A stretch of DNA of 26,964 nucleotides from a virus, in the IMG/VR virus record IMGVR_UViG_3300029787_000265, positions 1-26,964 of that record. One strand, given 5' to 3'. The notes beneath the pieces are model-generated. The model was not told the origin of the DNA. It did no database searches and worked only from the letters and a program-made list of their open reading frames with translations. This document shows positions 1,089 through 26,471 of the stretch, one piece after another. The stretch's first letter is position 1; each line of letters opens with the position of its first letter. The position numbers and the translations under genes are program-made.

Positions 1089-1117
1089 ATTATAAACTAT
1101 GCATATAATTTATGCAA
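1089..1117 (-). promoter_or_regulatory. Sigma70-like promoter for gp55-gp47
   Basis: Read on the minus strand, TTGCAT (1117-1112) and a perfect TATAAT (1094-1089) are separated by 17 bp, the ideal spacing for a housekeeping bacterial promoter. The -35 matches the consensus only in its TTG. The TATAAT ends 7 nt before the gp55 ATG, so the predicted start point falls at or just before the start codon, leaving essentially no leader. The region is A+T-rich, so a TATAAT by chance is possible; the spacing and position upstream of a minus-strand gene pair support it. Confidence 0.55.
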
Positions 1118-1123
1118 TAAATA
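1116..1123 (+). promoter_or_regulatory. Late-promoter-like box before gp48
   Basis: AATAAATA differs at one position from the T4 late promoter TATAAATA, which occupies the -10 region and is recognised by gp55. It ends exactly 6 nt before the chosen ATG of gp48 (1130), with no Shine-Dalgarno sequence between. The same box and spacing recur before three other genes in the window. It physically overlaps the -35 element of the opposing gp55 promoter. Confidence 0.65.
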
Positions 1124-1129
1124 TTTTTG

Positions 1130-2035
1130 ATGGCATCATTCTCTAATTTTCTAAATCAAGGCAGTAGGTTCCTCACAGGAGCTGCAGGTGCTGTGGCCAA
1201 TCGACTATCAGCGGCAGGTTTGCCTGCGGGAGGCATATTTGGCAGACAACAACGATCACTGCAATCCAATGTTGGCGCACCATCTGCCACACAGGACTGG
1301 GGAGTTAAACTTACTTTACCTGAGACGACTTATAACGATTTGTTTGGCAACTCACCAATTATGGACAAACAGTCAATAGGTGTGCGTAACGGCATGAGAT
1401 GGCCTGTTACTCCTTTTATCAACATGAGCCACTCTGCAAATTATGACTCACGTGCTGTTTTGCACAACAATTATCCATACTATGCCTATCAAAATTCACA
1501 GGTAGATCAGATCACAATATCAGGGTCGTTTCCTGTGAATGATCAAAGAAGCGGACTTAACTTTTTGGGCACTTTGCATTTTTTAAGAACAGTGACCAAA
1601 ATGTATTATGGTGGCGGTGATGCTAATCAAGGCAATCCACCTCCTGTGTGTAAACTCAATGGATATGGAGATTACATCTACAAAAATGTGCCAGTGATTA
1701 TCACAAACTTTAACGTGGAACTTAGAGAACAGATTGATTACATTGGAATAACTGTGCCAACAGGTGGTCTGTCTTCACTGCCTAGTGAATCACCTAACCA
1801 AATGATGAGACAGTCACAACAGTTGTCTCCAGGATTGAGAAATGCAATATATGGATCTGCAACAAACAATCCAGCTAACGCTACTGAAAGCGATGGCAGT
1901 GTGAACTATGTCCCAACAGATTCTCTTATTGCTGTAACTTGTCTACCAGTGTACTCAAGAAACAAAATTACTAATCAATTCAGCCTAAAGCAATTCGCAC
2001 AAGGCGACCTAACTAAAAATCAAGGATTTATCTAA
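1130..2035 (+). CDS. 48: gp48-like baseplate tail-tube cap protein
   Basis: A 301-residue protein that I read as the marine-phage form of gp48, the baseplate component that caps the hub and nucleates the tail tube. The ATG at 1130 is preferred over an in-frame TTG at 1127 because it lies 6 nt after the AATAAATA box, the spacing seen before other genes here. The N-terminus is small-residue and hydrophobic (roughly residues 10-40, rich in Ala and Gly). The middle contains conserved-looking aromatic and proline-rich segments (MRWPVTPFINM; TLHFLRTVTKMYYGGG) and a VPVIITNFNVEL strand. T4 gp48 is 364 aa and its paralogue gp54 is 320 aa, so the length suits either. Its stop overlaps the start of gp53 by one base (TAATG), indicating translational coupling. 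The gp48 rather than gp54 label rests mainly on resemblance to cyanophage gp48. Confidence 0.72.
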   Translation: MASFSNFLNQGSRFLTGAAGAVANRLSAAGLPAGGIFGRQQRSLQSNVGAPSATQDWGVKLTLPETTYNDLFGNSPIMDKQSIGVRNGMRWPVTPFINMSHSANYDSRAVLHNNYPYYAYQNSQVDQITISGSFPVNDQRSGLNFLGTLHFLRTVTKMYYGGGDANQGNPPPVCKLNGYGDYIYKNVPVIITNFNVELREQIDYIGITVPTGGLSSLPSESPNQMMRQSQQLSPGLRNAIYGSATNNPANATESDGSVNYVPTDSLIAVTCLPVYSRNKITNQFSLKQFAQGDLTKNQGFI

Positions 2036-2334
2036 TGGCCCAATACGCAAAGACTTCACCTTATTCAAACACTTCACAGGGCAAAGAAACACTTAACATA
2101 TTGAACAAAAGATTATTTGCATTTGAGCCTGACGATATTTTATATGAAATTGATTCTTTTTATGACAAACGTCCTGACTTATTATCACATGATTTGTATG
2201 GAACATCAAAACTTTGGTGGGTGTTCATGCATAGAAATATGGACACCATTACCGACAATATTTTTTCATTCACAAAAGGGACACAGATTAGGATTCCAAA
2301 AAAGTCGACGCTCGAACAGTTTTTAGGGGTATAG
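2035..2334 (+). CDS. 53: gp53-like baseplate wedge protein
   Basis: A 99-residue protein matching the gp53 wedge family. Visible hallmarks are DDILYEIDSFYDKRPDLLSH followed by DLYGTSKLWWVFMHRNMD and a C-terminal KGTQIRIPK strand. T4 gp53 is about twice as long (196 aa); the short form is usual in marine T4-like phages. In T4, gp53 joins the wedge late and locks neighbouring wedges around the hub. It starts on the TAATG of gp48 with AAGGA about 9 nt upstream, and ends one base before the next ATG, so it sits inside a tightly coupled operon. Confidence 0.85.
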   Translation: MAQYAKTSPYSNTSQGKETLNILNKRLFAFEPDDILYEIDSFYDKRPDLLSHDLYGTSKLWWVFMHRNMDTITDNIFSFTKGTQIRIPKKSTLEQFLGV

Positions 2335-2335
2335 G

Positions 2336-4756
2336 ATGACACAAAAATATAATGGTCCAAAATTAACCAAAGAAGAATTCCAACTACAAAAACAAGAACG
2401 TACAAATGCTTGGGCTGCCAACAGAGAAAGAGTATTGCAAGAGCGCGAGGCCAAACGCGAGGCTAAGCGACAAGAAAAATTGTTTGCAGAACAACAAGCA
2501 CAAAATAATCAATTTACTTCAAACAGTCAAGTTGAAGCAGTCAATCTTCAAAGTGATGTTGATAGACAGGAAGCAACATCAAACACCAAAAAGGCTGAAA
2601 CACAAGATCAAATACAACAGAATAACGAACAAGTAACCACAGGAGAATCAAGCGTTGACGGAGCAACCAACACCTCTACAGGAAGTCCGCAAGATAAAAT
2701 ACCACAGGTCAATCCATTGCATGATTATGCTCCTTACAACTATATCATCACACTCAGTTGTATAGATAAAAATACATTTAATCAAGGTAGCAGTGATGAA
2801 GGCATAGTTATTGTTAAATCAGGAGGCAAAGGAGTAACAGGCGCTCCACCTTTAGACAAAGATTTTTATATAGACAACCTTGTGTTGCGGAACAGTGTTT
2901 CTCCTACCCTGCAGTCTGGCACCGGTTCAACATTTCAAATTTTATTTGAAGTTACAGAACCATATGGCACATCTTTTGTAGACGCATTGATACAGGCAGC
3001 TGACATCCAAGGATACACTAATCACACACAAGCAGTGTATCTATTGAAAGTTGAATTCAAAGGCATCAGTGATGACGGAAAACCAACCAACACCATTCCA
3101 TACACAACAAGAATAGTGCCTATTAGTATTATTGATATTGTGTTAAACATAGAAGCGGGAGTATCAACCTATGCTGTGACAGGCCGTCCAGTAACTAATC
3201 TTGCTTTTACTGACCTGCATGGAAAAACCAAAGAAGCATACACCATAGGTGGAGACACTGTAGAAGAAGTGCTTAACAATTTCTTTGAAGCAATCACCAG
3301 GACACAAGCCACTCTAAAAGATCTTAACAAAATTAAAGAACAAGACAAGTATGAACTATCAACAGATGAATGTAAACCTATTATAAAAACTAAGATAGGA
3401 TATGATGCAAAGTCTCAGTCAAAAAATGTTGTAAATTATTCTTACATATACGACACCGCTACGCACAAAACTTTTTACAGAGGCATAGTTGTGCCTAAAG
3501 GCACAAATATACAAGCCTTCATTGAAGCCATAATCAGAGAAAGCGATTTTTATAAAGACCAATTTGATGATGACATGAATCCGAAAGGAGACAAATTACA
3601 AATAGCAAGGATATATCCTCGACTTGAAATTCTTGATGATGACAATGGCAACAATCGCCCTGCTTATAAGTTCAAATACATTGTGCGAACACAAGAAGTT
3701 ACATCTGCTTATTTTTCTAAAAATGCAGACGATTTAACAAAGGATCTTGTTTCTGTAAGAACATATGACTATTTGTACACAGGAAAAAATCAGGATGTGT
3801 TAAATTTTGATATCACATATAAATTTGCATATTATCAAGCAATACACAGAGACAGCAACATCGGCAATGAAGAACAGACTGACAACTATGATGGCAAGGA
3901 GGAACAAACCAATGACCCTGATCAAAAAGGAGCATCTGGGAAAGGCGTATCGCAGGTAACAGTTGAGCCGGAAGATCCAAAGCACAAAGATGGCCTGCAA
4001 ATAGCAGTCAATAAAAAGAATGGCGAAATAGGAGGAATATTTGAACAAGTAATTGCAGATCCATCTGGAGACTTGATTGTGTGTACATTAGAAATATTAG
4101 GAGATCCTTTCTGGATTGCACAAAAAGATGTTAGCAACAGATCATTCAGACTGTCACATCAAGAAGGTGTTATTAACACAGATGAGAATGGTGCGGTGGC
4201 AACTGACGAATCTGAAATATACATTGATCTTAATTTCCGCACGCCACAAGATTTGGATGATAAGACAGGACTTTTTTTAAACAAGGAGAGAGTAACTTTT
4301 TCTGGCAAATACAAAGTGTTTATATGTGCCAATAGATTTTCTGGAGGAGTTTTCACAAACGAACTAGAAATGACAAGATTAAAATTCCAAGAAGATGACG
4401 AGCCACAAACAGGCGCTGGCACTGGTGAAGGAGCACCAACTGGCATCAATAGACCAGGATACTCCACTAGACCAGCCAATTTATCCAGTTTACAATCAGA
4501 CACAGGTGACGTTCAAGTTGATGCAGACAACACAGGCAGTAATGTAACTAAAGTACCAGTGGGCAGTAATATATCAAGAAAGTTTAAAACTCCAGGAGCA
4601 GGAGGTTTTGATCCAGGAGGTTTTGATTTTACAGGATTACCAATTCCGAAAATTAGCATTGACACAGGTGGATATTATTATAGTGATCAACAACTCCAGT
4701 TTTTAAGAGATGTAGGAATTCCTCCTGATCCATCGAGGATAAGAAATGGCAACTAA
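2336..4756 (+). CDS. Large virion structural protein, probably baseplate hub-associated
   Basis: An 806-residue protein that I cannot match to a named T4 gene. Residues about 8-60 are very rich in Lys, Glu, Arg and Gln and look like a charged helix or coiled coil, followed by a Gln/Asn/Ser/Thr linker to about residue 120. A folded region then starts (HDYAPYNYIITLSCID) with FYIDNLVLRNS and FEVTEPYGTSFVDAL. This pattern resembles a domain I associate with marine phage structural proteins. The middle contains further beta-rich segments, and the C-terminus is Gly/Pro-rich. Its last 11 bases overlap the start of gp5, and it follows gp53, so it is made with hub and wedge components. A role as a gp27-type partner of gp5 is plausible from position only. 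Its start has AGGGG about 10 nt upstream of the ATG. Confidence 0.6.
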   Translation: MTQKYNGPKLTKEEFQLQKQERTNAWAANRERVLQEREAKREAKRQEKLFAEQQAQNNQFTSNSQVEAVNLQSDVDRQEATSNTKKAETQDQIQQNNEQVTTGESSVDGATNTSTGSPQDKIPQVNPLHDYAPYNYIITLSCIDKNTFNQGSSDEGIVIVKSGGKGVTGAPPLDKDFYIDNLVLRNSVSPTLQSGTGSTFQILFEVTEPYGTSFVDALIQAADIQGYTNHTQAVYLLKVEFKGISDDGKPTNTIPYTTRIVPISIIDIVLNIEAGVSTYAVTGRPVTNLAFTDLHGKTKEAYTIGGDTVEEVLNNFFEAITRTQATLKDLNKIKEQDKYELSTDECKPIIKTKIGYDAKSQSKNVVNYSYIYDTATHKTFYRGIVVPKGTNIQAFIEAIIRESDFYKDQFDDDMNPKGDKLQIARIYPRLEILDDDNGNNRPAYKFKYIVRTQEVTSAYFSKNADDLTKDLVSVRTYDYLYTGKNQDVLNFDITYKFAYYQAIHRDSNIGNEEQTDNYDGKEEQTNDPDQKGASGKGVSQVTVEPEDPKHKDGLQIAVNKKNGEIGGIFEQVIADPSGDLIVCTLEILGDPFWIAQKDVSNRSFRLSHQEGVINTDENGAVATDESEIYIDLNFRTPQDLDDKTGLFLNKERVTFSGKYKVFICANRFSGGVFTNELEMTRLKFQEDDEPQTGAGTGEGAPTGINRPGYSTRPANLSSLQSDTGDVQVDADNTGSNVTKVPVGSNISRKFKTPGAGGFDPGGFDFTGLPIPKISIDTGGYYYSDQQLQFLRDVGIPPDPSRIRNGN

Positions 4757-6221
4757 TAGACGAGAAATATTTAAAGACGTCACCAAGCGTATTGCACAAT
4801 TTCCAGGCCCATATGTAGGATATGTAAAAAATCCAGGAGACTTGAACAGGATGGGACGATTGTTTGTGTTTATTCCTTCACTACATGGTGAATATGATGA
4901 GACCAATAAGCAACAAGAGAATCAACTAATACCAGTCAGCTACTGTTCACCTTTTGCGGGACAAACTCCTTTGAGTGAAACCACAGAAGGCAATCGCGAA
5001 TTTGCCAACACACAAAAATCTTATGGTTTTTGGATGGTACCACCTGACATTGACACAAAAGTGCTTGTGATGTTTGCTGATGGAGACATCAACTCAGGAT
5101 ATTGGATGGGATGTGTGTATGAAGATTTCATGAATCATATGACTCCGGGCATTGGCGTAAGCAATCCTGATAAGTTTGTAGGCACCCCATCTGAGATAGA
5201 AGAATACTATTCACAACTAAGTTTGTCACAAGTGCCTGTGGCAGAAGCACAAAGAAAAGGCGAATCTATCAATGTTGCCAACCTTAATACAGATTTAGAT
5301 CGTGATACTGCATTTTCTGTGCGGCCTGCTCACACACCATCCACTCAATCTTTAATTGCACAAGGTTTAATCACTGACAATGTCCGTGGTACAACTACAT
5401 CCTCTGCAAGACGTGAAAGTCCATCTCAAGTGTTTGGCATATCAACTCCTGGGCCAATAGATTTTGAAGGCCAACAAACACGTAAAAGAGAGTCAATCAA
5501 TAGGCATGGAAGAATTTTTACTGATGCAAACGATCAATTTGCTTTCAACAAAGTTGCACACTCTAGATTAGGTGGAAACACATTTGTAATGGATGACGGA
5601 ACTCCTGTTACACGTGAGGGCACAACAAATTTAACAGACATAGAAAATGAATTGATAAGATTACGTACACGTTCAGGTGCACAGGTATTACTACACAATT
5701 CCAAGGACGTCGTATACATAATCAACAGTTCGGGCACAGCATGGATTGAATTTACACAAGATGGAAAAATGGATGTGTACGCCAAAGACAGTGTAAGCAT
5801 ACACACAGAAAATGATATGAACTTTCGTGCAGACAGAGATATCAACTTAGAAGCAGGAAGAAATGTCAACATCAAAGCCATTAAGTCCGCAGGAGCACCA
5901 GGCCAAGATTCAGGCGGCCGTGTGCATATTGATGCAGGCGCCAATTATGAACTAGTCATAGGCACTGACGGATTGATCAAAGCAGGAGCAAACATCAAAA
6001 CATTTGCAGGCACAGATTTCAATGTGAACACTGGAAATGAAATACATTTTAACACATCAGGAAAAGTATCAAGTTCGGTCACAGCAAGTTTAGCCACACA
6101 TGGCACCTCCGATCTAACATCTATCATGAAACGTATTCCAACACAAGAACCATGGACAGACCATGAAGACAAAAAGCGTGAAGATGTAACTTCAAATAAA
6201 ACAGATAGAGAGATTCAATAA
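4746..6221 (+). CDS. 5: gp5-like baseplate hub spike protein lacking a lysozyme domain
   Basis: A 491-residue protein resembling T4 gp5 and VgrG spikes. The N-terminal 20-130 region looks like the gp5 OB-fold (YVGYVKNPGDLNRMGRLFVF; later WMVPPDIDTKVLVMFADGD and GYWMGCVYEDFM). Residues about 320-450 show short alternating strands typical of the triple-stranded beta-helix needle (DGKMDVYAKDSVSI, then DINLEAGRNVNIKA, then a GTDFNVNTGNEIHFNT strand). T4 gp5 (575 aa) has a lysozyme between these parts. Here the linker, residues about 150-300, is Ser/Thr/Arg-rich with no lysozyme-like motif that I can see. GAGGAT precedes the ATG, which overlaps the upstream gene by 11 nt. The next gene encodes the PAAR tip expected to cap the needle. 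Confidence 0.85.
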   Translation: MATNRREIFKDVTKRIAQFPGPYVGYVKNPGDLNRMGRLFVFIPSLHGEYDETNKQQENQLIPVSYCSPFAGQTPLSETTEGNREFANTQKSYGFWMVPPDIDTKVLVMFADGDINSGYWMGCVYEDFMNHMTPGIGVSNPDKFVGTPSEIEEYYSQLSLSQVPVAEAQRKGESINVANLNTDLDRDTAFSVRPAHTPSTQSLIAQGLITDNVRGTTTSSARRESPSQVFGISTPGPIDFEGQQTRKRESINRHGRIFTDANDQFAFNKVAHSRLGGNTFVMDDGTPVTREGTTNLTDIENELIRLRTRSGAQVLLHNSKDVVYIINSSGTAWIEFTQDGKMDVYAKDSVSIHTENDMNFRADRDINLEAGRNVNIKAIKSAGAPGQDSGGRVHIDAGANYELVIGTDGLIKAGANIKTFAGTDFNVNTGNEIHFNTSGKVSSSVTASLATHGTSDLTSIMKRIPTQEPWTDHEDKKREDVTSNKTDREIQ

Positions 6222-6523
6222 TGCCACTGGCGGCACGACAAGGCGACACTGTAACCACAGGCCATGCATGTGACACTACAACCACATTGGCACAACCAGG
6301 ACAGTCTTCTGTGTTTGTAGTTGGCAAAAATTGGTGTAGATTAGGTGACCTCACTGTGGCACATGATATTCCAGTGGACGAAGAATGTGTAGCTCACACA
6401 GCTGCCATCACCGGATCCAGTAACACAGTGTTTGTTGTTGGAGTAAAATGTGCAAGAGTTGGAGATGGTGCAGATGCCGGATCAATATCGGCATCGACAC
6501 AGGACTCAGTTTTTGCAGGTTAA
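6221..6523 (+). CDS. PAAR-domain spike tip protein (gp5.4-like)
   Basis: A 100-residue PAAR-type protein, expected to form the conical metal-binding tip on the gp5 beta-helix. The N-terminus PLAARQGDTVTTGHACD gives His15 and Cys17, and AHDIPVDEECVAH gives His48, Cys56 and His59; these are candidate ligands for a metal ion. Two internal half-repeats are visible: VFVVGKNWCRLGD (31-43) and VFVVGVKCARVGD (70-82). It shares one base with the gp5 stop (TAATG), matching its partnership with gp5. Its stop codon lies within the TAAATA box that precedes gp25. Confidence 0.85.
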   Translation: MPLAARQGDTVTTGHACDTTTTLAQPGQSSVFVVGKNWCRLGDLTVAHDIPVDEECVAHTAAITGSSNTVFVVGVKCARVGDGADAGSISASTQDSVFAG

Positions 6524-6526
6524 ATA
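6520..6526 (+). promoter_or_regulatory. Late-promoter-like box before gp25
   Basis: TTAAATA overlaps the stop codon of the PAAR gene and ends exactly 6 nt before the gp25 ATG at 6533. The only purine-rich element upstream is an AGG about 14 nt away, poorly placed as a ribosome-binding site. The box and spacing match those before gp48 and gp6. Because it lies partly in coding sequence, it could also be coincidental. Confidence 0.5.
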
Positions 6527-6532
6527 TAACAA

Positions 6533-6991
6533 ATGGCAGTAGTATCATACAAAGATCAAAAAAGAACTAAAGTTACACAAAAAACACAGGTGTTCAGTGG
6601 CTTCTCAACACAAGGCAGAGAATTCAAAAATCCAAAACTGTACGACATTGAACTGGTTAAACAAGATCTATTGAACCATTTCAACATACGCAAAGGGGAA
6701 AAGTTGGAAAATCCAGAATTCGGCACTAACATTTATGCGTACATTTTTGATCCCTTAGATGCAGATACCAAAAACACAATCATACAGGAAGTAGAAGATG
6801 TTGTTACATACGATCCAAGAGTGCAACTGGATCAAGTTGAAGTCAATGAATTTGAACATGGCGTTCAAATCAGAATATCATTGTTGTACATTGGATATGG
6901 CATTGGTGAAAACATTGATCTATTGTTCGATAATCAACAAGGGTTGTTAACAGGCCCATCATCTTTCTATCCTGCCAACACAACAAATTAA
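6533..6991 (+). CDS. 25: gp25-like baseplate wedge protein
   Basis: A 152-residue member of the gp25/GPW family, the wedge protein from which sheath assembly is thought to start. Characteristic features are the helical LVKQDLLNHF, the turn KGEKLENPEFGTNIYAYIFD, a long helix TKNTIIQEVEDVV, and YDPRV, which corresponds to the conserved EPR core seen across contractile injection systems (here with Asp in place of Glu). The N-terminal 20 residues or so are a basic extension. It is followed by a 33-bp gap carrying the next late-like box. Confidence 0.88.
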   Translation: MAVVSYKDQKRTKVTQKTQVFSGFSTQGREFKNPKLYDIELVKQDLLNHFNIRKGEKLENPEFGTNIYAYIFDPLDADTKNTIIQEVEDVVTYDPRVQLDQVEVNEFEHGVQIRISLLYIGYGIGENIDLLFDNQQGLLTGPSSFYPANTTN

Positions 6992-7010
6992 AGTAGCATT
7001 TAATTTTATC

Positions 7011-7018
7011 AATAAATA
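7011..7018 (+). promoter_or_regulatory. Late-promoter-like box before gp6
   Basis: AATAAATA sits in the 33-bp gap between gp25 and gp6 and ends exactly 6 nt before the gp6 ATG (7025). It is the same octamer, at the same distance, as the one before gp48. No Shine-Dalgarno sequence lies in the A+T-rich stretch upstream of gp6. Confidence 0.65.
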
Positions 7019-7024
7019 ATTGCA

Positions 7025-10000
7025 ATGGCATCAACCAATCGTCAAAACTCTTTACTTGCCACAAGAGCATGGCAAAGAATATACAGAACTTTCCAACAAG
7101 CAGACTTCAAATCGTATGATTTTGACACCATTAGACGTACCATGATCGATTACATAAAATTGAACTATGCTGAGTCTTTCAATGACTTTATTGAATCATC
7201 AGAGTATGTAGCACTCATTGATCTAATCGCTTATGTGGCACAGTCAATATCTTATAGAGTTGACTTAAATGCTAGAGAAAACTTTATTGACCTTGCTGAA
7301 AGAAAAGAATCAGTTTTGAGACTTGCAAGGCTTATATCATATCAACCCAAAAGAAATATAGCTGGTTCCGGATTCTTAAAAATTGATGCTATTTCAACAA
7401 CAGAATCTGTTTTCGATTCTTCCGGAAACAATTTGGCCAACACTGCCATATTATGGAGCGATGTGACAAATGACAACTGGCAGGAACAATTTAATGCAGT
7501 ATTAAATGCATCTTTTCCACGTGAACAGTTTGTAGGTAAGCCAACAGCAAAAGATACAATTAGCGGAGTGCCAACAGAACAGTATAGAATAAATGGAAAC
7601 AATCTATCTGAACCAATATTCCCTTTCTCTAAGAATATAAATGGCGTCAATATGGACTTTGAAATAGTACCTGCTTCTTTTTCCAACAACACATTTTTAT
7701 ATGAAGAAGCACCTATCCCTGGCAACTCATTAAGTTTAATTTATAAAAATGACAACAAAGGATTCCAATCAAACAATTCAGGATATTTTGTCCACTTTAG
7801 ACAAGGCTCTATTAAAACACAGGATTTTTCTGTAACTAATTCCGCTCCTAATACAATTGTTTCTATCACAGAAAACAACATCAACAATGATGATGTGTTT
7901 TTGTTTAAATTAGATCAAAACAACTTAATAGAACAAAGATGGACCAAAGTACCTGCTATTACAGGAAACAATATAATTTACAATTCGTTGGAAAATAATG
8001 TTAACAACCAATATGCTGTAGTTACAAAAGCAAACGACCAAATTGACTTAGTATTTTCAGATGGAGTGTATGGCACACTACCACAAGGAAATTTTAGATG
8101 TGTGTTTAGACAAAGCAATGGACTAAGTTATCAAATACAACCAACTGACATGCAGAACATAACAACCAATATTGATTATGTTTCTAGAAACGGACAAGCC
8201 AATACACTTACAATTGTTGCATCTCTGAAAAGCACAGTAACAAACGCATCTGCATCTGAATCTGTGCGTGACATCAAAACACAAGCACCACAAAGTTATT
8301 ATTCAAACAATAGATTAATTACTCCTGAAGATTATCAAATTGTTCCTAAAATTCAAAATCCATCTGTAGCTAAAATTAAATCTCAAGTAAGGACAGCATC
8401 AGGTGTATCAAGATTCTTGGACATAGTAGATCCAACTGGAGTATATTCACAAACAGATGTAATAGCAGATGATGGCATGTTGTACCAAGAAGAAGACACA
8501 GAATCATTTGACTTCCAATTCTCAACCAATGATGATATCAGTAAAGTCATTGTTAATCAACTTGATGATGCGATCAAGTCAGCATCACTAAGACAGTTTT
8601 ACTATAAAAATTATCCAACACTAACAGCAAGTAACATTACATGGAACAAGTCAACACAAACTACAAACCAAGTCACTGGATACTTCACGGATGGTAGTCC
8701 AGTTGCAGTAGGATCTTCAACCACATCCAACTTGCGATACGTTACAGAAGGCTCCTTGGTTAAATTTACAGCACCCGCTGGCAATCATTTCATGTTGAGC
8801 AACGGCACACTAATGACAGGCACTGGAGGACACACTGGATCATCAGATATTGCATGGGCAAAGATAGTGTCAGTGACAGGTGACGGCAGTAACAGTGGCG
8901 CAGGCAATCTTGCAAATGGCAATGGCCCAATTGTCCTGAATGACTTGATACCATCCACAGCAATATTATCAGAGATTATACAAAATTTAAACACCACACT
9001 GACAACTACATTACAAAATACAATTATAGAACAAGTGGGATTATACAACAATTTTGGACTAGGATATGATGTAGACACAGCATCTTGGTACTACATTGCT
9101 GAAGATGATTTGAACACTGGTGCTTTTGATTTAGACAATGCAAAAAACACAACCAGTGCCAATCTTGATGCATCATGGCTAATAAGATTCTCAACTAATG
9201 GAGTTTCATATACTGTGTTCAATCGTGCAACAAAATACATTTTTGAATCATTTTCAAGGAACAAATTTTACTTTGATGAGTCTGTAAAAATTAATGATCC
9301 TGAGACTGGCCTACTTATTAAAGACAAAATTAGAGTGTTGAGATCAAATGTTGGACCTGATTTTTACACAAGTTTAAAATATGACTATGATTGGCAGATT
9401 GTTAAAAATGTGCTAGGAGAAGATGGATATGCAGATACCAGAAAAATGCAGGTTGGATTTTTTGATAGTGACGATGACGGTGCTGTGGACAATCCTGAAC
9501 TATTTGATATAATTGTTGCACCACTATCAGATGTTTTGAACAAATATGTTTTTTTTAAAGAAGCAACTGAAAATGGAATCACAGTATATAATCCAGTTAC
9601 AAATGCAGACTTTGTGGTGGCAGCTGCTGAAACTGATATTGACGATGCAAGTGTGTATCCAAATGGACAATTATTTTATTTTTATAACGCTGACGAATTC
9701 AAACAATATAATAGCACCACAGACGCCACAGCAGTAGTCACTGGATACAGAGCAAGAATAGGAAGACAAGACATTTTATACAATTACAAACATGGCGCTC
9801 CAAGATCAAGAAGAATTGATCCAGCAGTTTCAAATTTAATTGATGTATACATGATTACAAAAACATATGACACAAGTTTGAGACAATGGCTTGCTAACAA
9901 TCAAGTAACAACCAAACCAACTGCGCCAACACTGTTTGACTTAGAAAATTCTTATCTGTCAAATCTAGACGAATACAAAAGTGTATCTGATGAGATTGTA

Positions 10001-10558
10001 ATTAATCCAGGAGAATATAAACTTGTGTTTGGACCTGGAGCAAATGCTGAACTACAATGTCAATTTAAAGTTGTAAAAAATGCAAACACGAATGTTTCAG
10101 ACAACCAAATTAAATCATCTGTAATCAATGCAATTAACACTTATTTTTCACTTGAGCTTTGGGACTTTGGTGATAAGTTTTATTTCACAGAATTAGCTGC
10201 CTACATACACAATCAACTTGCTCCGGATTTATTGAGTGTGGTCATTGTACCAGCACAGAGCACAAATGGTTTTGGATCTCTCTTCCAAATTAATTCGGAA
10301 GACAACGAAATATTAATTTCATCCGCCACAGTGGATAATGTAGAAATTATTTCATCTATCACCGCTGATAAACTAAAAGCCACCGGCACAGTGGTTACAT
10401 CATCCACTGCGGCCACAAGTACAACATCCACTGTTGCCAGCGTTAGTGATACCACAACGACAACCACTGCTACAACTACACCAAGTGCATCTACCACAAC
10501 AACAACATCAAGCACTTCATCATCCAGCAGTTCAGGCAGTAGTGGAGGTTATTACTAA
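7025..10558 (+). CDS. 6: gp6-like baseplate wedge protein, enlarged, with Ser/Thr-rich tail
   Basis: A 1177-residue protein recognisable as gp6, the wedge protein that forms the inner baseplate ring. The N-terminal 120 residues carry the family core: [20 protein letters not shown] (15-34), [20 protein letters not shown] (63-82), then [19 protein letters not shown]. Later segments include [11 protein letters not shown], typical of gp6 and baseplate J-type proteins. T4 gp6 is 660 aa, so this form is nearly doubled, mostly by beta-rich insertions in the second half. The last 60 residues or so (from about 1120) are almost only Ser and Thr, ending SSGGYY. The final codons also carry the GGAGGT that serves the next gene, and TAATG joins the two genes. 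Confidence 0.88.
10390..10549 (+). repeat. Low-complexity Ser/Thr-coding repeat at the end of gp6
   Basis: An imperfect run of ACA, ACC, ACT, TCA, TCC and AGC codons encodes a Ser/Thr stretch of about 50 residues with little other content. The reading frame stays intact to the gp6 stop. Such tails are usually disordered or elongated. The simple trinucleotide pattern suggests length variation by slippage. Confidence 0.75.
10544..10549 (+). promoter_or_regulatory. Strong Shine-Dalgarno for the giant wedge gene, inside gp6
   Basis: GGAGGT, a near-ideal Shine-Dalgarno sequence, lies with 8 nt between it and the ATG at 10558 (9 nt counting from GGAGG). It is also read in frame as the two glycines near the gp6 C-terminus. 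It is the strongest ribosome-binding site I noticed in the window, and it precedes the largest gene. Confidence 0.8.
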
Positions 10559-16500: not shown

Positions 16501-19500
16501 GACGGTGTGTACCAAGTGGCTACAACTGCTGACAGCACCGACAACATTTATAATTTTACTGTAACATACACAGACACAGTTGATAGTAGTTTAAGCAGAG
16601 GAGTGGTAGGAAAATTTGAATCCGTTAGATTCAACTCTATTGATGAGATCGATGATGCTTCTCCCCCTAAAGGATATGCCATTGGTGATAACATTTTTAT
16701 TGACAATGATTACACATCCAGTGGAGGCTTATGGCAAGTCTATCAAAAATCAGCTTCAACACAATATGAATACAATGCATCAACTGTATTAAGTGAAACT
16801 GATACCCCTGAAGCAAAATATGGCAACAGTATTGCTGTTGCAACTGATGATAGCTACATCACAGTAGGTGCTCCTGGCATCAACACAGTGTACATGTACA
16901 AGCGTCCAATTGACTTTGATTCAACATCAATCACTGACTTTGCATTGACCACACAGATTACTTTGCCATATCTAAACGACAGCACACTGGACACAGGCAA
17001 TGATAATTTTGGCCAAGTTGTAAGGATGACGTCAACAGGATCAAGAGCATTTGCATCAGCACCAAACAGTAGCAATCTTGTTAAATTAACACTAACCACA
17101 ACTGGATTATCATTTGACATTGGAGAAGAACTAAGACAAGCATCAAATGGGGCAAGAGGCGTAATTTTAGATTTCGATGCAGACAATGATATAATTGTTG
17201 CACGTCAAACAACCACAACCGACTTCACAGATGATTCATCCTTGTTGGATGTGCATGATTCTTCATCAATTGTTGATATTATTAAGGTGGAGGGCACTGA
17301 AGGAGCCAACCAAGGACTTGTTGCTGTGTTGAAAAGAAACAACGATAGTTCATCAGTGAATTATTCTGTGGATCAATATCTTACAGCTCCTAATCTAGAT
17401 CGCGGTGGTTTATTTGGACATGACATGTCTGTGTCAGGAGACGGCACATATCTTGCTGTTGCTTCTCCAGGTGGACCAAATGATTCAACTCTATCCGAGC
17501 GTGGCACAGTGTACATGTACAAATACAACACCACAACACTAGAATATGATTTTAATCAAACACTGGCTGCTTCAGAAGAAGTTGGAGCAAGGTTTGGAGA
17601 ATCAATTAATATTTCTCAAGATGGCACTGTGTTGGCTGTGGGTGCAAGTGAGGCAACTGACTCAACAACCACAACAGCAGGAAAAACATTTGTGTACAAA
17701 CTAATTGATACAACTTGGACACATGTGGAAACACTCAGGGGCGGCACTGTTGAAATAGACACAAAATTTGGAACCAGTGTCACTGTCAATGAATCAGGCA
17801 CAGATATCTTAGTGGGGTCACCAAACGAAACTGTGATCAATGGCAACAGCGGGGCAGTGCATCACTTTAGCAATCAGTCTGAATCATTCACTGGTGATGG
17901 ATCCACAACACAATTCACAACAACTTTCACAATCAATCATGACGAAAAACTCACTGTGTTGGCAGGCACAACCAGATATGTGGTAAGCGATGGAGTCAGC
18001 ACCAATCAATATTCAACAGACGGAACAACCAACATTGTTACACTTAGTCCAGCACCTGCATCTGGATCTGCAATAACCATATCACAGTATCAACGCACAA
18101 AAATTATTGCGCCACAGTCTGTGTCAGAAAGTGTTGGATTTGGAAGTCACATAGAAGTATACGACAATGATCTTGCTGTGTTCAGTTTACAAGGAAACAT
18201 TAAACAAAAAACTACATTCGATACAGTGGCCACAGATGGTTCAACAAAATTAACTGGCACAACTTTTGACAAAAGCACAACCAAGTTTGCTGACACAACA
18301 ATGGACACTGGCACAGTGTCCATATACAACAAATATGATACAAATTTTGTGTTTGATCAAACATTGTTGCTTCCTGGCTTGGCATCCGGAGATCAATTCG
18401 GGCAGTCAACTGCTTTTGCTACACAAAATTTATACGTTGGTGCACCATTGAATGATGCAGTAGCATCCAACAGAGGCAGTGTGTATCAGTTTAGAAAAAA
18501 CGCCAATGACAAATCATGGGTAACACTTGCAACACAACCAAATGTAATTGATGTTGAAAAAATACAAAAGTCATTTGCATTTGATAAAACAACAAATGAA
18601 TTACTAACTAGATTACAAATCATTGATCCTGCTAAAGGCAAACTGTTTCCTGAAGTGGACGCTAACATTCAATATAAAACTTTGTATGATCCAGCTGACT
18701 ACATCAGTTGGGATGAAAAACAAGTTGGTCAGGTATGGTTTGACTTGTCCACAATCAAGTTCCAATGGTATGAACAAGGAGACTTGACATACAGATATCA
18801 AAACTGGGCAAAGTTACATCCTAATGCAATTGTCAGTATGTGTGAATGGAAAAGAAGCGATGTGTTGCCAACCAGATACAATGAATTATCAGCAACCAAT
18901 GAAGGTGTTGCACAAGGATACACAGGCACAGCAAGAACAGACTATGTGACTGCAAAGTTTTTTGATGATGCAAAAAATACTTTTGTTGATTACTACTATT
19001 TTTGGGTAGTAAATCCAACAGAGTTGCCTGGTATATCAACAAGAACACTCACTGGAGCACAGTTGGCACAAGCAATTGAGAATCCAAACAATTTTTCAGA
19101 AAGTTGGGCTGCGGCAATAGACACAGATGCTGTGTTGTTGTCTTTGAGAAAAAGTTTCTTGTCTGATACAAACTTTGTTGTGCATTTCGAAACAACAACA
19201 GATGCGGAACCTTTGATTCCTCACACAGAATATCAAATGGTTGCTAAAGGAGACAACACAGTTGCTATTCCAACAGCACTAACAACTAAGTTTCACGATT
19301 CGCTTGTTGGAAAAAACATCACAGGGGCTTCTGTGCCAGATGCCACACTACCAACAAAAATGCAGTATGGCACACTGAATCGTCCACGTCAAAGTTGGTA
19401 CAGCGATAGATTGGCCGCATTAAAAGTTTTAGTGCAATTTATCAATGACAAATTAACCAAAAAAGCCTATGTGTCATTGTACAACATTGATACATTACAA

Positions 19501-22500
19501 AAAGTTGATCCTATTCCAAACGTCAAAACAAGTGTATACAGTGACACTGTTGACACAGACACTGAACTTGATTATGTTGACACAACAACACTGACTTCCG
19601 GTTACAAAATACTGGTCAAAGTAGATACCACTGCCAACAATGGATGGCAAATTTACAATTGGACAGGCACTGATTGGATTGGATACAGCAAACAATCATT
19701 TAACACAAACAACTATTGGGAATTTGAGGATTGGTATGCCACTGGATATGACAGCGGAGTTTCTGTGGACTACACAGTTGCTAATGAACAAACAAGAACA
19801 TCAACATCATATGTTAAGGGCGAAATAATAAAAGTTTTAGCATCCTACGATGGTAACTTTAGAATATATGAAAAAACACATGATGGATTTGAAACAATTG
19901 CAATACAAAATGGAACAATTAAAATAAGCGAAACAATATATGCAGAAGCCACTGAAGATTCAAGTTCAGTCACAGACTCAACAGAAAACACAGCGGCAGG
20001 AGAAGAGATTAGAAATATATTCAGTTGGATACTGAATGACATTGATGATGATACACTACAATACAATGATATATTCTTCATTGGCATTAGACTTGCACAA
20101 ATACAAAACAAAGATGCTGACTGGGTGTTCAAATCATCATTTGTTAAGATAAAAAATACTTTTGCACAATTAAGTCAAGACAGAGAATATCAAATAAACA
20201 CATCCGATGCAGTTAAAGAATTTTTGGAAGAAATATTGCCATTCAAAACAATAATTAGAGAAGAAAACACGCTGTATCAAAACACTGATAATTTTAGTGG
20301 TGATCTTACTGACTTTGATAATAAGTCATATTATGATTTTGAAACTAAATCCTACATTGCACCAACAGTATATTCTGATAATTCAACTTACTATGATGTT
20401 TACAATTCCAATCCATGGAAATTGTATTCTGACAACTACAAATATACTGTGTCTTCAATTGAAATAATAGATCAAGGACTTGGCTACACTGAAGCGCCTA
20501 TCATCACAATAACAGGCGGCGGAGGATCTGGAGCCACTGCAACCGCAACAATTTCAGCTGATTCAGTTGGAATTGTGACATCAATCACAGTGACAGACCC
20601 AGGAAGCGGATACACATCCAATCCAACAGTAACAATTACAGGCGGTGGAGGTGATGCAGTGACAACAACTGCTAGGGCCTATGCAATGTTGTCTAATAAC
20701 ACAATTAGGAAAATAGACAGCTTAATTAAGTTTGACCGAATCAATTCCTTAAAAGAAACATCCAACAACACCATTGTTGCTTGGACACCACAAACAACAT
20801 TTACGGCTGGCACAAACATTAGATATGAAAACGAAATATACCGTGTAACTGCAACATTCACATCCAACGACAACTTCATTGATGCAGTTGGCCTAAGTGA
20901 TTCTTCAACTGTAAATGTGTTCAATGATGATTCAACAATGACAAATGACTCACCATTAGTTAAATGGTCGGCCACTGATAGGATACATGCCTACTATGAT
21001 CCAACAGCTAATATGGCTGGGTTAATAGGCGATGGATCCACAGCGTTAAATTCTTATGCACAATTAATGACAGGACTTGAATATCCAGGAGTCAAAGTGC
21101 TTGCCCCTGGACTTGCAAATGGTGAAGCATATGATAATGGTGGATATGACTTGTTTACATACGATAAACTTGTATCAGATCCGGCTACTCCTGCCAATGA
21201 ACTTGCAGACTTGGATCAAGTGTTGGATTCTAAAACATTCAATACAACACTAGGCTCAAGAGCTGAAGACATTAATGTTGTTGGTGATGCTTTTATTTCA
21301 GAATATTCTGCACATGCTCCTGAAGAAGTCATCCCAGGTGGAGTTTATGACACTATGGACATGAAAATTTATACCCAAGCATCTGATGGCTCATCTACAA
21401 TCCAAAAGAAAATATATTATGGCGATGGTGCTACTACACAGTTCGATGCTCCTGTGATAGGAGTGATAGAAGGCTTAAGAGTTTTTGTTGACAACCAATT
21501 TAAACAAGAAGGTGTTGATTACACTGTGACTAAAGACGCCGACAACAACTTTATAACCTTTACATCAGCGCCTGCATTAAATCAAATTATTAATTTAGTG
21601 GGGATACAGGTATCAGTTGAAAAATTAATTGCAAAGTTTGACAAACGTGGCGATGGATCAACTGTTGCATTTGATCTTCCAATTACTTTTGATAGAATAC
21701 AACAAAATTACACTTTAGTAAACGGAGTGAAAACTTCTGTTACACTATCGAATAACGATTCTGTGTCCACCACAGCTACGTTTGCCTCAGCGCCAGCAAC
21801 TGATTCGCTTATAGAATTATTTTTATTCAATCTAGATTCTGGCACAAAGGCATTTTCAGAAGTGATCGAAACAACCTACAATGAAATAGAAACAGACACC
21901 ACAGAGCATTTTGTGACTTTAACAACAACTCCTGGGGTGATTGGTCCGTTCCACAACAAGGTTATTGTAGAGGCCATGGCAGGAGATAGCACCAATAGAT
22001 ACCGACTAGCACCACCACAAGCAGTGTACTACACTGGTGACGGATCAACTGCACAATTTGCCATAGCCAATGATCCTATTGCAAGTGCAAACGCAACAAC
22101 TTCAAACACAGAAGTTTATAAAAATGGCGTACTGCAAACAAGTGGATTTACAATATCAACATCTTCGATTGGAAAAAAAGTTGTGTTCACAAGTGCACCA
22201 GCAGATGATGACAACATTGCAATTGTTTTATTGTTAGGACACGATTACGAAATTGACTCAAACGGCAGATTAATCTTAAAAGCAAACTGGTTCGGTGGCG
22301 ATTCTACCATAGACAGTGGTCAGGTTGTAGTTACAACATTTACAAATCATGATCAAATGGGACTAAGAACACAAGTGTTTGCTCCTTCTACTGATAACAA
22401 ATACACTTTATCATTGACTCCTATTAATTCCAGTTATGTGTTTGTTGCGTTTAACAAAGCAAACCTTACTGCTAATGTTGACTTTAAAGTTGAAGGAAAT

Positions 22501-23361
22501 GTTGTAACCATTGCTGGCACACAGCCTGATATAAGATTAATTACTGCTGATGATAATTTTTTCAAAGCAGACGAAGGAGAAATCACAACAGACATAGATA
22601 ATATAGGAGAAGTAGTAATCACATATGTTGCTGGTGATCTATCAAAGTCAGCATTCGGATACAGAATATTCAAAGATATTGTAAACAGATATCATTATAG
22701 ACGACTAAGTTTAACACATTCAACACAACTGGCAGAAGACTTGGCTGTGGATGCAACAAGCATTACAGTGAAAGATGGCACCAAACTACCAAATCCATCT
22801 GTTACAAATAACATTCCTGGAGTGGTCTTCATTGGCACTGAAAGGATAGCATACTTTGACAAGACTGGGAATGTGCTATCAAGATTATTCAGAGGCACAC
22901 TAGGAACAGGAGTACAAACACACTCAGGAGGTGATTTTGTTGTTGATGGTTCAAAGGTACAAGAAGTGCCATATGAAGACACAGTAAACAAATTTACTGC
23001 CACAGCAGATGGATCAACTATCAATTATGATGTTGGGTATAAAATTGAAAGCAGAAACGAAATCAATGTGTTTGTTGGAGGAACAAAAACTGAAGCATTT
23101 ACAATTGGTGAAGGTGCAGATGCCACTGACATCACTGCGGATGAAACAGAACTTACTGCTGATCAAACGTATGCTGGCACCAACGTGGTGCTAACAACAG
23201 CGCCAGCAAATGGTGTAAAAATAGAAGTAATCAAAAAAACAGGTAATGTTTGGTATGATCAAGGTGAATCTACAGCTGCAAATGGCAAAGGATTGCAGGC
23301 TGCGACTGGCAAAGAAGTATTGTTCTTACAAAAGGAACCCACTGACCTAAACTTATTTTAA
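10558..23361 (+). CDS. Giant gp7-like baseplate wedge/structural protein, modular, 4267 residues
   Basis: A single uninterrupted frame directly after gp6, where T4 has gp7 (1032 aa). The N-terminus ([16 protein letters not shown]; then [19 protein letters not shown] and YRQYYWL) resembles giant marine T4-like structural proteins labelled gp7 or VrlC-like in my memory of the literature. Visible modules in order: a cupredoxin-like domain (about 170-260); a family segment [16 protein letters not shown] (about 385-400); [20 protein letters not shown] (from 1214); [20 protein letters not shown] (about 1760-1780); a seven-bladed FG-GAP-type propeller (about 2087-2660) with a GDGST module inserted; a glycine-rich GYTxxP tandem repeat (about 3300-3380); and four more GDGST-type beta modules (about 3622-4240). 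An [26 protein letters not shown] domain precedes the last one. No signal peptide or membrane segment is seen. Translation is coupled to gp6 through TAATG and a GGAGGT site. The gp7 assignment is by position and general resemblance; a baseplate structural role is more certain than the number. Confidence 0.72.
11095..11337 (+). other. Cupredoxin-like domain within the giant wedge protein
   Basis: Residues about 180-260 read as a cupredoxin-type beta-sandwich: GNTYNFDVS (183-191), FWIKT (197-201), a beta hairpin [11 protein letters not shown], then [14 protein letters not shown] with Cys247, His250 and Met253 in a C-x2-H-x2-M arrangement like the C-terminal copper loop of plastocyanin-type proteins. 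The N-terminal histidine ligand expected after strand one appears replaced by Lys195-Asn196. Copper binding is therefore uncertain and the domain may be purely structural. Confidence 0.5.
16801..18540 (+). other. Seven-bladed FG-GAP-type beta-propeller within the giant wedge protein
   Basis: Seven repeats with the pattern aromatic-Gly...(D/S)-(D/G)-x-x-(L/I)-A/T-V-(G/A)-(A/S)-P...G-x-V-Y-x-(Y/F) occur between residues about 2087 and 2660. They begin [24 protein letters not shown] (degenerate), [48 protein letters not shown] and [12 protein letters not shown]. Seven is the blade number of integrin-alpha-type propellers. A GDGST-type module (about 2446-2515) is inserted between blades five and six. 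Such folds usually bind proteins or glycans. Confidence 0.7.
20455..20690 (+). repeat. Glycine-rich GYTxxP tandem repeat within the giant wedge protein
   Basis: Two copies of a unit of about 40 residues: [19 protein letters not shown] followed by [19 protein letters not shown], each followed by Ala/Thr-rich strands. They sit at residues about 3300-3380, between the wedge-like middle and the C-terminal beta modules. Confidence 0.7.
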
Positions 23362-23398
23362 TGGAGCATCGTAATAAACAACCGTGTTTAAAATGTAA

Positions 23399-23405
23399 CT
23401 AAATA
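23399..23405 (+). promoter_or_regulatory. Late-promoter-like box after the giant wedge gene
   Basis: CTAAATA lies in the 44-bp gap after the giant gene and ends exactly 6 nt before the ATG at 23412, the same spacing as before gp48, gp25 and gp6. An earlier in-frame ATG at 23406 would directly abut the box, leaving no room for a transcription start, which favours 23412. No Shine-Dalgarno sequence is present. Confidence 0.6.
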
Positions 23406-23411
23406 ATGCAC

Positions 23412-24065
23412 ATGACAGAATCTAACACACAATCAGCTGAAGAAAAGAAGATAAAGACGCCTGATGAAAAGCAGGGCCTAAATATTCAAGGGCATATTAA
23501 GATATTCGATCCAGAAACTGATGAAGTGTATGTGGACAAACACAATGCCATACATTATGAAAATTTTTCCCAAGCATTGGCCAAATCAATTGCAAACAGA
23601 ACAACAGGATTCATTGAAGAAATGCATTTTGGTAATGGCGGAACATCGGTAGATACAACAGGAATCATCACGTATTTGACTCCTAACACATCTGGTGACA
23701 ATGCCAACCTATACAATAGAACGTTTTTTAAAAGTATAAATGATCAATCATCTCTGAACCTTGACACCACAAGAAACAAAATTACAATTTCACACACAAA
23801 TGGAACAACCTACAGCGACTTGATTGTTTCTGCACTGCTTGATTTTGGTGAACCAGCAGGCCAACAGGCATTTGATAACACAACAACAGTCAATGACACA
23901 TTTGTGTTTGATGAGATTGGATTGTTTTCATGGGAAGGAACTGCAGGCGCAGGCAACTTGTTGACTCATGTTATATTTCACCCTGTGCAAAAGTCACTCA
24001 ACAGATTGATACAAATTGATTACACAATCAGGATACAATCTTTGACTAACTTTGTGGATGTATAA
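23412..24065 (+). CDS. Tail/baseplate structural protein, gp8-region
   Basis: A 217-residue protein (219 if the ATG at 23406 is used). After a charged, Lys/Glu-rich N-terminus of about 25 residues it has GHIKIFDPETDEVYVDKHN, IHYENFSQALAKSIANR, MHFGNGGT, then FDEIGLF and LLTHVIFHPVQKSLNR. I associate this pattern with virion structural proteins of marine T4-like phages found after the gp6/gp7 genes. It is much shorter than T4 gp8 (334 aa) and I see no clear gp8 motif, so I do not assign that number. It is followed 2 bp later by the next gene and is probably the first gene of a three-gene unit driven by the CTAAATA box. Confidence 0.65.
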   Translation: MTESNTQSAEEKKIKTPDEKQGLNIQGHIKIFDPETDEVYVDKHNAIHYENFSQALAKSIANRTTGFIEEMHFGNGGTSVDTTGIITYLTPNTSGDNANLYNRTFFKSINDQSSLNLDTTRNKITISHTNGTTYSDLIVSALLDFGEPAGQQAFDNTTTVNDTFVFDEIGLFSWEGTAGAGNLLTHVIFHPVQKSLNRLIQIDYTIRIQSLTNFVDV

Positions 24066-25959: not shown

Positions 25960-25976
25960 CACACATAATTACTTGC

Positions 25977-26471
25977 ATGATCACAGATGAACTTCTTGCA
26001 ACCTCTTTTGTCACAGCACATTTTATTGACAATAACAGAACACAGATTGAAATCATAACCTTAGATCCACAAAACAAAGACAACCAAGTATCTAATGTCA
26101 TTGAATATGACACAACTCATCCTTGGTGTCAGTCTTTACTTAAAGTTTGTGACCTAGATACACTACATGAAAACACATGGACTAGAATACAAAATCAAAG
26201 GAAAAATTTTGAACGCAGTGTTATTAGAATAGCAAGAGATGAAGGCCTAGTCTTTAGCACACACAAATCAGAAACCAAGTTTCACACAGCTATGATGGAC
26301 TTTCTTTTTAATTTTAAAACTGAAGATGAAAAAGAAGATTTATTTGCATTTAAACTTGCTAGTTTTGAACTTGATGTTGTAAAAAATTGTAAAGATAAAA
26401 CACAAAAAGCGGCTATACGTAAAGCTCAAACACCACTTGATGTTGTTAAGGCCATATCAGAAATAAAATAA
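25977..26471 (+). CDS. Conserved-type hypothetical protein of unknown function
   Basis: A 164-residue acidic and lysine-rich, mostly helical protein. The first 60 residues look like an alpha/beta start (ATSFVTAHFIDNNRTQIEII, then a YDTTHPWCQSLLKVCDLD stretch). The remainder is helical, with LFAFKLASFELDVVKNCKD and a basic end KAAIRKAQTPLDVVKAI. I recall similar C-termini in unnamed T4-like cyanophage proteins but know of no function. It begins 17 bp after the structural operon with no clear ribosome-binding site and no TAAATA box at the usual distance. Its last 46 bases overlap the convergent gene. Confidence 0.6.
   Translation: MITDELLATSFVTAHFIDNNRTQIEIITLDPQNKDNQVSNVIEYDTTHPWCQSLLKVCDLDTLHENTWTRIQNQRKNFERSVIRIARDEGLVFSTHKSETKFHTAMMDFLFNFKTEDEKEDLFAFKLASFELDVVKNCKDKTQKAAIRKAQTPLDVVKAISEIK

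Follow-up and report, generated by a model that had tools for sequence, protein, structure and literature searches.

Probable late promoters at leaderless spacing before virion genes in a T4-type viral sequence and its relatives

Transcription from the late promoters of phage T4, which depends on gp55, gp33 and gp45, is a textbook system. Passages of a T4 review describe an 8-bp late box with A(-13) variants (PMC2988020), and the T4 box is therefore deduced to span positions -13 to -6. The core hexamer of this TATAAATA box, TAAATA, is the subject of the present analysis, which concerns IMG/VR record IMGVR_UViG_3300029787_000265, a virus sequence of 26,964 bases (positions 1-26,964, hereafter the window). 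The window shares with the T4 late promoters a gp55-family sigma factor, the TAAATA core and its use before virion genes. It differs in that the late first genes of its clade mostly lie 5-8 nt from the box and have no Shine-Dalgarno (SD) sequence, and it apparently lacks the T(-13)A(-12) pair. Over 45 kb of T4, 25 boxes have a downstream start, which for 23 of them is 12-46 nt away; 13 of 22 inspected show an SD-like word. The boxes of the window are very likely late promoters set at leaderless spacing, as judged from the sequences, and uncultured relatives of T4 appear to let the promoter set the mode of translation. Throughout, d counts the bases that separate the final A of TAAATA from the A of the ATG.

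The RaK2-like jumbo phages CBB, GAP32 and RaK2 provide a second comparison. Parts of the CBB paper report ATAAATA before structural genes of CBB, at 35 locations (PMC5259590), and the words leaderless and Shine are absent from its main text. CBB and RaK2 resemble the window's clade in having the same gene order, a sigma gene divergent from the block and a strong purge of TAAATA. Unlike in that clade, the boxes of CBB lie 23-45 nt and those of RaK2 26-42 nt from the start (35 kb each), except for one RaK2 box at d=8. Boxes are mostly leadered in T4, RaK2, CBB, Phosso and Syn9 (35-50 kb each), and over such lengths T4 and SCTP-2 have one d=5 site each and MIJ3 has none at d=4-8.

A partly similar arrangement is found in HTVC008M, a SAR11 phage of another family (Kyanoviridae). 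Its first 50 kb hold nine d=5 sites, and over 100 kb a box at d=5 precedes 9 of the 42 annotated starts inspected, namely gp2, gp3, gp4, gp25, gp48, the tape measure and three others, while gp13 has its box at d=8 (T4 gene names were assigned here from product names). Mosig, which shares the host strain of HTVC008M, has one d=5 site (gp3) among 20 starts inspected, and an octamer search of the whole record adds two; Melnitz has no d=5 among 18 starts inspected and three octamer sites, and P-RSM1 has none in either. From these sequences, leaderless spacing seems to have arisen separately in HTVC008M. Late-promoter prediction was unsuccessful in a pelagimyophage study, passages of which make no mention of leaderless spacing (PMC7029224). 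Excerpts of the Melnitz paper give 15 late promoters based on similarity to TATAAAT (PMC9004378). Phage transcripts are said in passing, in one section of a further article, to be often leaderless (PMC5312081). No report of leaderless late mRNAs in T4-type phages was found among the titles and abstract openings listed, subscription journals being mostly outside the scope of that search.

Leaderless genes are known in bacteria and in some phages, for example those of the lambda cI type and those of Thermus phages. The arrangement described here is like them in having a -10 box at start-codon distance, no SD sequence and an AUG start: the -10 element lies at a fixed distance from the ATG, with peaks at d=5-8 for the box and at d=6-7 for TATAAT. 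It is unlike them in that the box is of the phage late-sigma type and that genes of a single late regulon are individually assigned the leaderless spacing.

TAAATA boxes in the window and in close relatives

The first-pass annotation of the window had claimed four TAAATA-N6-ATG sites (N6 being d=6). All four are exact, with the ATGs at 1130, 6533, 7025 and 23412. The window has only six TAAATA sites, whereas dinucleotide shuffles predict 23.07, and these N6 sites account for four of the six. Given six sites, the binomial probability that at least four fall exactly N6 before one of the 13 gene starts is ~5e-14, and it is ~1.4e-7 if any distance of 0-40 is permitted. The bases before TAAATA in the four boxes are AA, GT, AA and AC, and none is the TA of the consensus. 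Inspection by eye agreed with the annotation that no well-placed SD sequence precedes the four box genes, and most of the other block genes do have a ribosome-binding word, as it had stated: AAGGA before 2035, GAGG before 4746 and GGAGG before 10558. The fourth site features two in-frame ATGs, one at 23406 directly after the box (d=0) and one at 23412 (d=6). The relatives L165, L166, L168 and L169 all keep the d=6 ATG, and three of them (L166, L168 and L169) have no d=0 ATG, so 23412 is the likelier start of the fourth gene.

The window contains a T4-type baseplate block (gp53-like wedge, gp5-like hub, PAAR protein, gp25 and gp6-like wedge) with a 4267-aa protein downstream. The features are given below with the profile or comparison on which each rests; those with no such entry were read from the sequence itself.

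302..1081, minus strand: gp55-type late-transcription sigma factor, 259 aa (PHROG 12791, E 1.2e-77; PHROG 234, E 2.4e-22)
1089..1094, minus strand: TATAAT, -10-like, N7 before the ATG of the sigma gene
1112..1117, minus strand: TTGCAT, -35-like element for the sigma gene, separated by N17 from TATAAT and abutting the late box of the gp48-labelled gene
1118..1123, plus strand: late box TAAATA, N6 before ATG 1130
1130..2035, plus strand: first block gene, virion structural protein, 301 aa, leaderless-spaced (PHROG 12050)
2035..2334, plus strand: gp53-like baseplate wedge subunit, operon-internal, TAATG overlap, SD-like AAGGA (PHROG 7145)
2336..4756, plus strand: virion structural protein, 806 aa, operon-internal (PHROG 11190)
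4746..6221, plus strand: gp5-like baseplate hub, operon-internal (PHROG 13211, PF04717)
4768..4773, minus strand: the sole minus-strand TAAATA of the window, within a gene and with no start after it
6221..6523, plus strand: PAAR-motif protein, whose TAA stop at 6521-6523 doubles as the first three bases of the gp25 box (PF05488 and sequence)
6521..6526, plus strand: late box TAAATA, N6 before ATG 6533
6533..6991, plus strand: gp25 baseplate wedge, leaderless-spaced (PF04965, E 4.5e-11)
7013..7018, plus strand: late box TAAATA, N6 before ATG 7025
7025..10558, plus strand: gp6-like baseplate wedge, 1177 aa, leaderless-spaced (tblastn to annotated wedge proteins of RaK2, CBB and Phosso)
10558..23361, plus strand: 4267-aa protein, operon-internal, GGAGG SD (sequence; SD in 16/17 close sequences)
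23400..23405, plus strand: late box TAAATA, N6 before ATG 23412
23412..24065, plus strand: conserved virion-region protein, 217 aa, leaderless-spaced (PHROG 11259, unknown function)
23479..23484, plus strand: in-gene TAAATA, background (absent from the six relatives compared, L165-L170)
24068..25033, plus strand: next gene, directly after the preceding stop, no box

The closest named relatives of the sigma factor are PA5oct-type sigma factors (~43% identity), and those of the gp6-like wedge are ~33-37% identical. The label gp48 for the gene at 1130..2035 is that of the first-pass annotation; the profile match says virion structural protein. The CTAAATA at 23478, which had been put forward as a background example, fits that role in being missing from the same six relatives. 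The gene at 24068 has a box of its own at d<=8 in 4 of 6 sequences of the top identity band (window included). The fusion of the PAAR stop codon with the gp25 box (6521-6526) is common to several relatives, as judged by eye.

Relatives were collected through the sigma factor, gp6, the 23412 gene, the sheath and the major capsid protein, in each case as the best 80 of 201-599 confirmed loci. Counts refer to distinct sequences and include the window where it has the gene. Rows were excluded from the upstream counts where upstreams were near-identical or ended by a contig edge, where the match fell short of the first residues and where no ATG lay near the aligned start. Gene classes were assigned by PHROG searches of close-clade genes together with comparison of upstream regions. 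The positional analysis of the close clade covered 69 loci and 396 distinct starts from a simple gene caller that uses ATG starts only, so that genes starting with GTG or TTG were not called. The predicted enrichment of the 6-nt spacing was found: with no motif preset, TAAATA at d=6 ranks first among positional hexamers upstream of the 195 close-clade starts whose upstream gap is 15 nt or more, and 40 of its 81 occurrences in that region are at this distance. TATAAT is also raised at d=6 (11/46).

The same peak is seen from the side of the box. In 131 close-clade loci there are 499 distinct TAAATA sites, repeats having been dropped by identical 50-nt context only, so near-relatives stay in. 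ATGs that open at least 100 codons follow the box at d=5, 6, 7 and 8 in 50, 113, 23 and 13 cases, a total of 199, and at other distances in 9 (d=0-4), 13 (d=9-13) and 73 cases (d=14-26). At d=6 all 113 starts are ATG, with zero for the four other codons counted. Close relatives favour A immediately before TAAATA. C is favoured three bases before it (75/113 at d=6, 33/50 at d=5), an extension that lies outside the 8-bp T4 box. Whole-record counts that ignore gene starts give, in six close contigs, 25 N6 sites against 10 for the reversed pattern and 16 N5 sites against 6; RaK2 and CBB are below their own controls, Phosso is close to its control, and the N5 count in T4 is 10 against 5.

SD use differs by start class, an SD-like word being scored within -16 to -5 (a background window gives 0-10%). 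Close-clade starts with a box at d=4-8 have one in 2 of 80 cases (11 families), compared with 86 of 172 operonic starts, and the figures are 0/22 for starts with TATAAT at d=5-8 (6 families) and 4/12 for those with a box at d=12-35. Four close-clade contigs supplied another 200 kb, in part with the same genes, where the counts were 1/22, 0/8 and 5/11 for the three promoter classes, 40/103 for operonic starts and 16/56 for first genes without a box. In the distant group, an SD was found in 118 of 159 starts with a box at d=12-35. Among operon-internal block genes, the gp53-like gene (2035) has no box in 21/21 and an SD in 17/21 close sequences, and the gp5-like gene (4746) has no box in 23/24 and an SD in 9/24. 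Loss of SD sequences across the whole clade was rejected as an explanation, since operon-internal genes and the sheath, tube, capsid and SSB genes retain them.

TAAATA is also purged from coding DNA. Synonymous codons were shuffled within genes (60 shuffles) in 16 of the 69 close loci, which were chosen to limit overlap. The sense strand has 13 copies against 103.8 expected and the antisense strand 12 against 86.1, a 7- to 8-fold purge that leaves TAAATA at 0.13-0.14 of expectation, compared with ~0.5-1.0 for five control hexamers. The coding DNA of the window itself has one sense copy (14.0 expected) and one antisense copy (11.4 expected). The purge is 10-fold or more in CBB (2 against 20.9 sense, 1 against 21.0 antisense) and 4- to 5-fold in RaK2 (6 against 30.7 sense, 7 against 26.2 antisense). 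It is weak at most in T4, MIJ3, SCTP-2 and HTVC008M and confined to the antisense strand in Syn9, and the expected count for Phosso is too small to tell. Because both strands are affected, the purge fits a promoter acting at the DNA level and not an RNA signal, and it suggests that the 6-bp core is strongly selected as a promoter signal.

Spacing and Shine-Dalgarno use gene by gene

In the close clade, the distance from box to ATG depends on the gene. Leaderless spacing (d<=8) with no SD is found in 13/13 terminase large subunit sequences, 18/18 sequences of a tube-like protein, and 17/17, 11/11 and 11/11 sequences of three virion genes. The same holds for gp6, where the box is at d<=8 in 23/23 close sequences with no SD. 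For gp25 (identity at least 55%) a box at d<=8 is found in 23 of 26 sequences, the other 3 having no box, and an SD in 0/26. The first block gene (identity at least 48%) has such a box in 15/16 and an SD in 0/16, and the 23412 gene has it in 6/6 close sequences, again with no SD. A leader with an SD is found in the same clade before the sheath (20/20, d=23-34) and the tube (25/25, d=13-26). The first gene of the head operon has an SD in 6/6 and a box at d>=9 in 5 of them. At the identity cut-offs used, an SD precedes the major capsid (9/9), SSB (7/7) and UvsX (4/4) genes, with a box in two capsid sequences only. Of 9 portal relatives with at least 60% identity, not all of them close-clade, 4 have TATAAT at d=5-8 and 4 others have an SD.

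More distant relatives indicate how these settings have changed. In distant gp6 sequences the box is at d=14-26 in 43/44 and an SD is present in 40/44. A gp6 tree of 89 rows, made by a quick search with support from the SH-like approximate likelihood ratio test (SH-aLRT), contains 30 leaderless-spaced rows, 54 leadered rows and 5 without a box. All but one of the leaderless-spaced rows (29) lie on one side of a branch with support of 100 and the remaining one, L044, arises apart; the tree requires two class changes, compared with a mean of 25 in shuffles. In L253, L254, L255 and L262, of a group related to the window's clade, the box lies at d=14 from gp6 and the short leader contains no SD, an intermediate state that belongs to neither class. 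Leaderless spacing is kept at lower identity by the 23412 gene (36/46, d=4-7), the tube-like gene (15/17, some still close-clade) and two virion genes (9/11 and 5/5), and distant sheath and tube genes have an SD in 11/11 and 8/8. The setting looks old for some genes, changed in others and extended to gp6 in the window's clade, because lower-identity relatives keep or lose leaderless spacing gene by gene in these sequences.

Proposed late initiation at the start codon and competing explanations

These observations can be brought together in one proposed mechanism. TAAATA would be a -10-type late promoter box read by the host RNA polymerase with the phage gp55-type sigma factor, and transcription would start 5-8 nt past the box, exactly at the start codon. 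The first gene of such a late unit would have an mRNA leader of 0-3 nt and be translated by leaderless initiation without an SD, and the downstream genes would rely on SD sequences and translational coupling. In the sheath and tube late units, the same box would act from 13-34 nt before the ATG with a strong SD between, so that the box-to-ATG distance would choose the mode of translation gene by gene. The leaderless or near-leaderless state of the mRNAs is deduced from the position of the box and T4 geometry: when this geometry is applied, N5 places the A of the AUG at +1, N6 at +2 and N8 at +4. The sharp drop below d=5 (below d=4 in some distant genes) is what would be expected if an AUG any closer to the box were transcribed only in part. 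The first-pass annotation had read the boxes as late promoters, and this reading is supported by the gp55-type sigma gene of the window, by the enriched spacing in relatives and by the near absence of SD sequences (2/80). We infer that this sigma factor matches the box, that transcript 5' ends lie at these starts and that their translation is leaderless.

Several observations weigh against this mechanism. Under strict T4 spacing the commonest distance, N6, would leave a leader of 1 nt or require the start to be shifted, and the rare d=4 cases need a shift in the opposite direction. The spacing rule is itself borrowed from T4. A scan of genome contigs aimed at host assignment yielded nine loci, each a distant relative (37-62% identity) in metagenome-assembled genomes of mixed taxonomy, where they are probably binning passengers. 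The gp25 and gp6 genes lie downstream of co-directional genes, and read-through mRNAs with long leaders may coexist with those from the boxes. An SD-like word is found in 25/86 distant-group starts with a box at d=4-8, and SD sequences are scarce (10/110) at close-clade starts with a gap of at least 15 nt and neither box nor TATAAT in place. Of 11 lower-identity sequences of the virion gene family L268:12685, 3 have the box at d<=8 and 8 have it at 18-27; of 5 such terminase sequences, 2 carry a box at d=4-5 and the other 3 lack one. There is also a non-AUG start at leaderless spacing: GTG occurs at d=5 in 20 cases, 19 of them from one family of 121-122 codons, and GTG is described as a poor leaderless start in E. 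coli in the passages at hand of one paper (PMC9031893). In HTVC008M the 45 nt inspected before the sheath, tube and major capsid genes contain an SD and lack a box, and the portal, protease and gp8 genes are box-driven and leadered although presumably low-copy, so that a strict copy-number rule is broken.

The explanations that compete with late promoters at leaderless spacing account for parts of the data. Host translation habits might impose the spacing, as HTVC008M, which infects SAR11 strain HTCC1062, has its nine d=5 starts; Mosig, however, has so few on the same strain, and sheath and tube are leadered within the window's own clade. Because the two phages share a host strain but differ, a purely host-imposed leaderlessness was judged unlikely. 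It might also be held that the box is a real late promoter but that its proximity to the ATG reflects genome compactness, with the functional mRNAs mainly leadered and made from upstream promoters. Consistent with this, gp25 and gp6 closely follow their co-directional neighbours, the gp25 box holds a stop codon, and leadered translation does exist at the operon-internal genes that use SD sequences. The 1130 gene, however, is divergent from its neighbour with 48 nt between them, and compactness predicts neither the excess of ATGs at d=5-8 (199) over those at d=9-13 (13) nor the sheath and tube boxes of the same clade, which lie 13-34 nt away with an SD in 45/45. This explanation has little probability in our view.

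Two further alternatives dispense with a promoter. TAAATA could be an RNA signal for translation, such as an A/U-rich standby or Kozak-like element, which would suit the fixed distance to the ATG and has a parallel in the SD-free, position-specific initiation of Bacteroidetes described in parts of one study (PMC6847099). Antisense copies, however, are purged as strongly as sense copies, the box is almost never found at operon-internal starts, distant gp6 relatives have the same box 14-26 nt upstream and usually an SD in between, and the window encodes a gp55-type sigma factor; an RNA-level motif was rejected on the antisense purge and is very improbable. The four sites might finally be a matter of chance in A+T-rich sequence. 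Spaced TAAATA-ATG pairs can arise randomly (0.84 TAAATA-N6-ATG sites are expected in the shuffled window, with at least four in 1 of 100 shuffles) and the whole-record counts are noisy, with their six-contig controls at 10 and 6. The shuffle null is too generous because TAAATA itself is depleted in the window, and the depletion, the binomial probability and the spacing conserved among orthologues (as in gp6 and terminase) led to the rejection of a chance origin, which is scarcely conceivable.

If late promoters are set at leaderless spacing, the distance may also serve as a stoichiometry dial, with initiation distance giving a low yield of low-copy parts and 13-34 nt plus an SD a high yield of sheath and tube; this is a tentative proposal, about which we are more doubtful than confident. 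Its sequence basis is that one sigma factor and one box would serve the late genes and that the setting appears conserved per gene within the clade, with gp6 changed on one main branch. A table of T4 tail components gives 138 copies each of the sheath and tube proteins gp18 and gp19, 12 of gp6 and 6 of gp25 and gp48 (PMC3004832, Table 1). Among the own-box families named by homology, the high-copy sheath and tube are both leadered (2/2), and gp6, gp25, terminase and the gp48-labelled gene are leaderless-spaced. As the family-level statistics are small, the proposal relies more on constancy within families than on the copy-number contrast, and a low output for low-copy parts would be its consequence. 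It is made less certain by the L268:12685 family, which switches at lower identity, and by the HTVC008M exceptions.

The gene-dependent spacing, the sigma70-type TATAAT at similar spacing before the sigma gene and the purge from coding DNA go beyond the first-pass annotation. If the proposed mechanism is true, leaderless virion genes would be readable from sequence alone, start-codon annotation in such phages would be aided, and there would be a direct test of whether leaderless initiation keeps virion parts in proportion. It would perhaps also explain why late promoters were missed in pelagimyophages in the study noted above (PMC7029224).

The sigma gene promoter and smaller observations

The GTG-starting family has an RPLCQECN motif, is endonuclease VII-like by eye and lies beside the sheath gene in L281, L284, L285, L286, L289, L290 and others. 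A TAATTA-N5-ATG before a 164-aa gene at 25977 (25958-25979) is possibly a degenerate late box; it was not seen in either of the two weak relatives found. A search with PF09116 for the gp45 sliding clamp gave 0/9 contigs, and the control genomes gave no match either.

The sigma gene diverges from the first block gene across a 48-nt gap (1082-1129). It is likewise divergent from the block in CBB, RaK2 and MIJ3, and in Phosso an adenylyltransferase gene lies in between. Among 20 distinct close-clade upstreams of the sigma gene, TATAAT is at d=6-7 in 11 and at d=29 in 2, with none within 35 nt in 7, and an SD is found in 0/20. The late box abuts a -35-like hexamer starting with TTG in 19/19 distinct close-clade sigma upstreams, while the distance from TATAAT to the ATG varies. 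Among 37 more distant sigma upstreams, 18 also have the pair when gaps up to 6 are allowed. Late polymerase on the 1118 box would cover the sigma gene promoter, and it is therefore possible, judging from this layout, that late transcription shuts off its own sigma gene through the fused box and -35 element.

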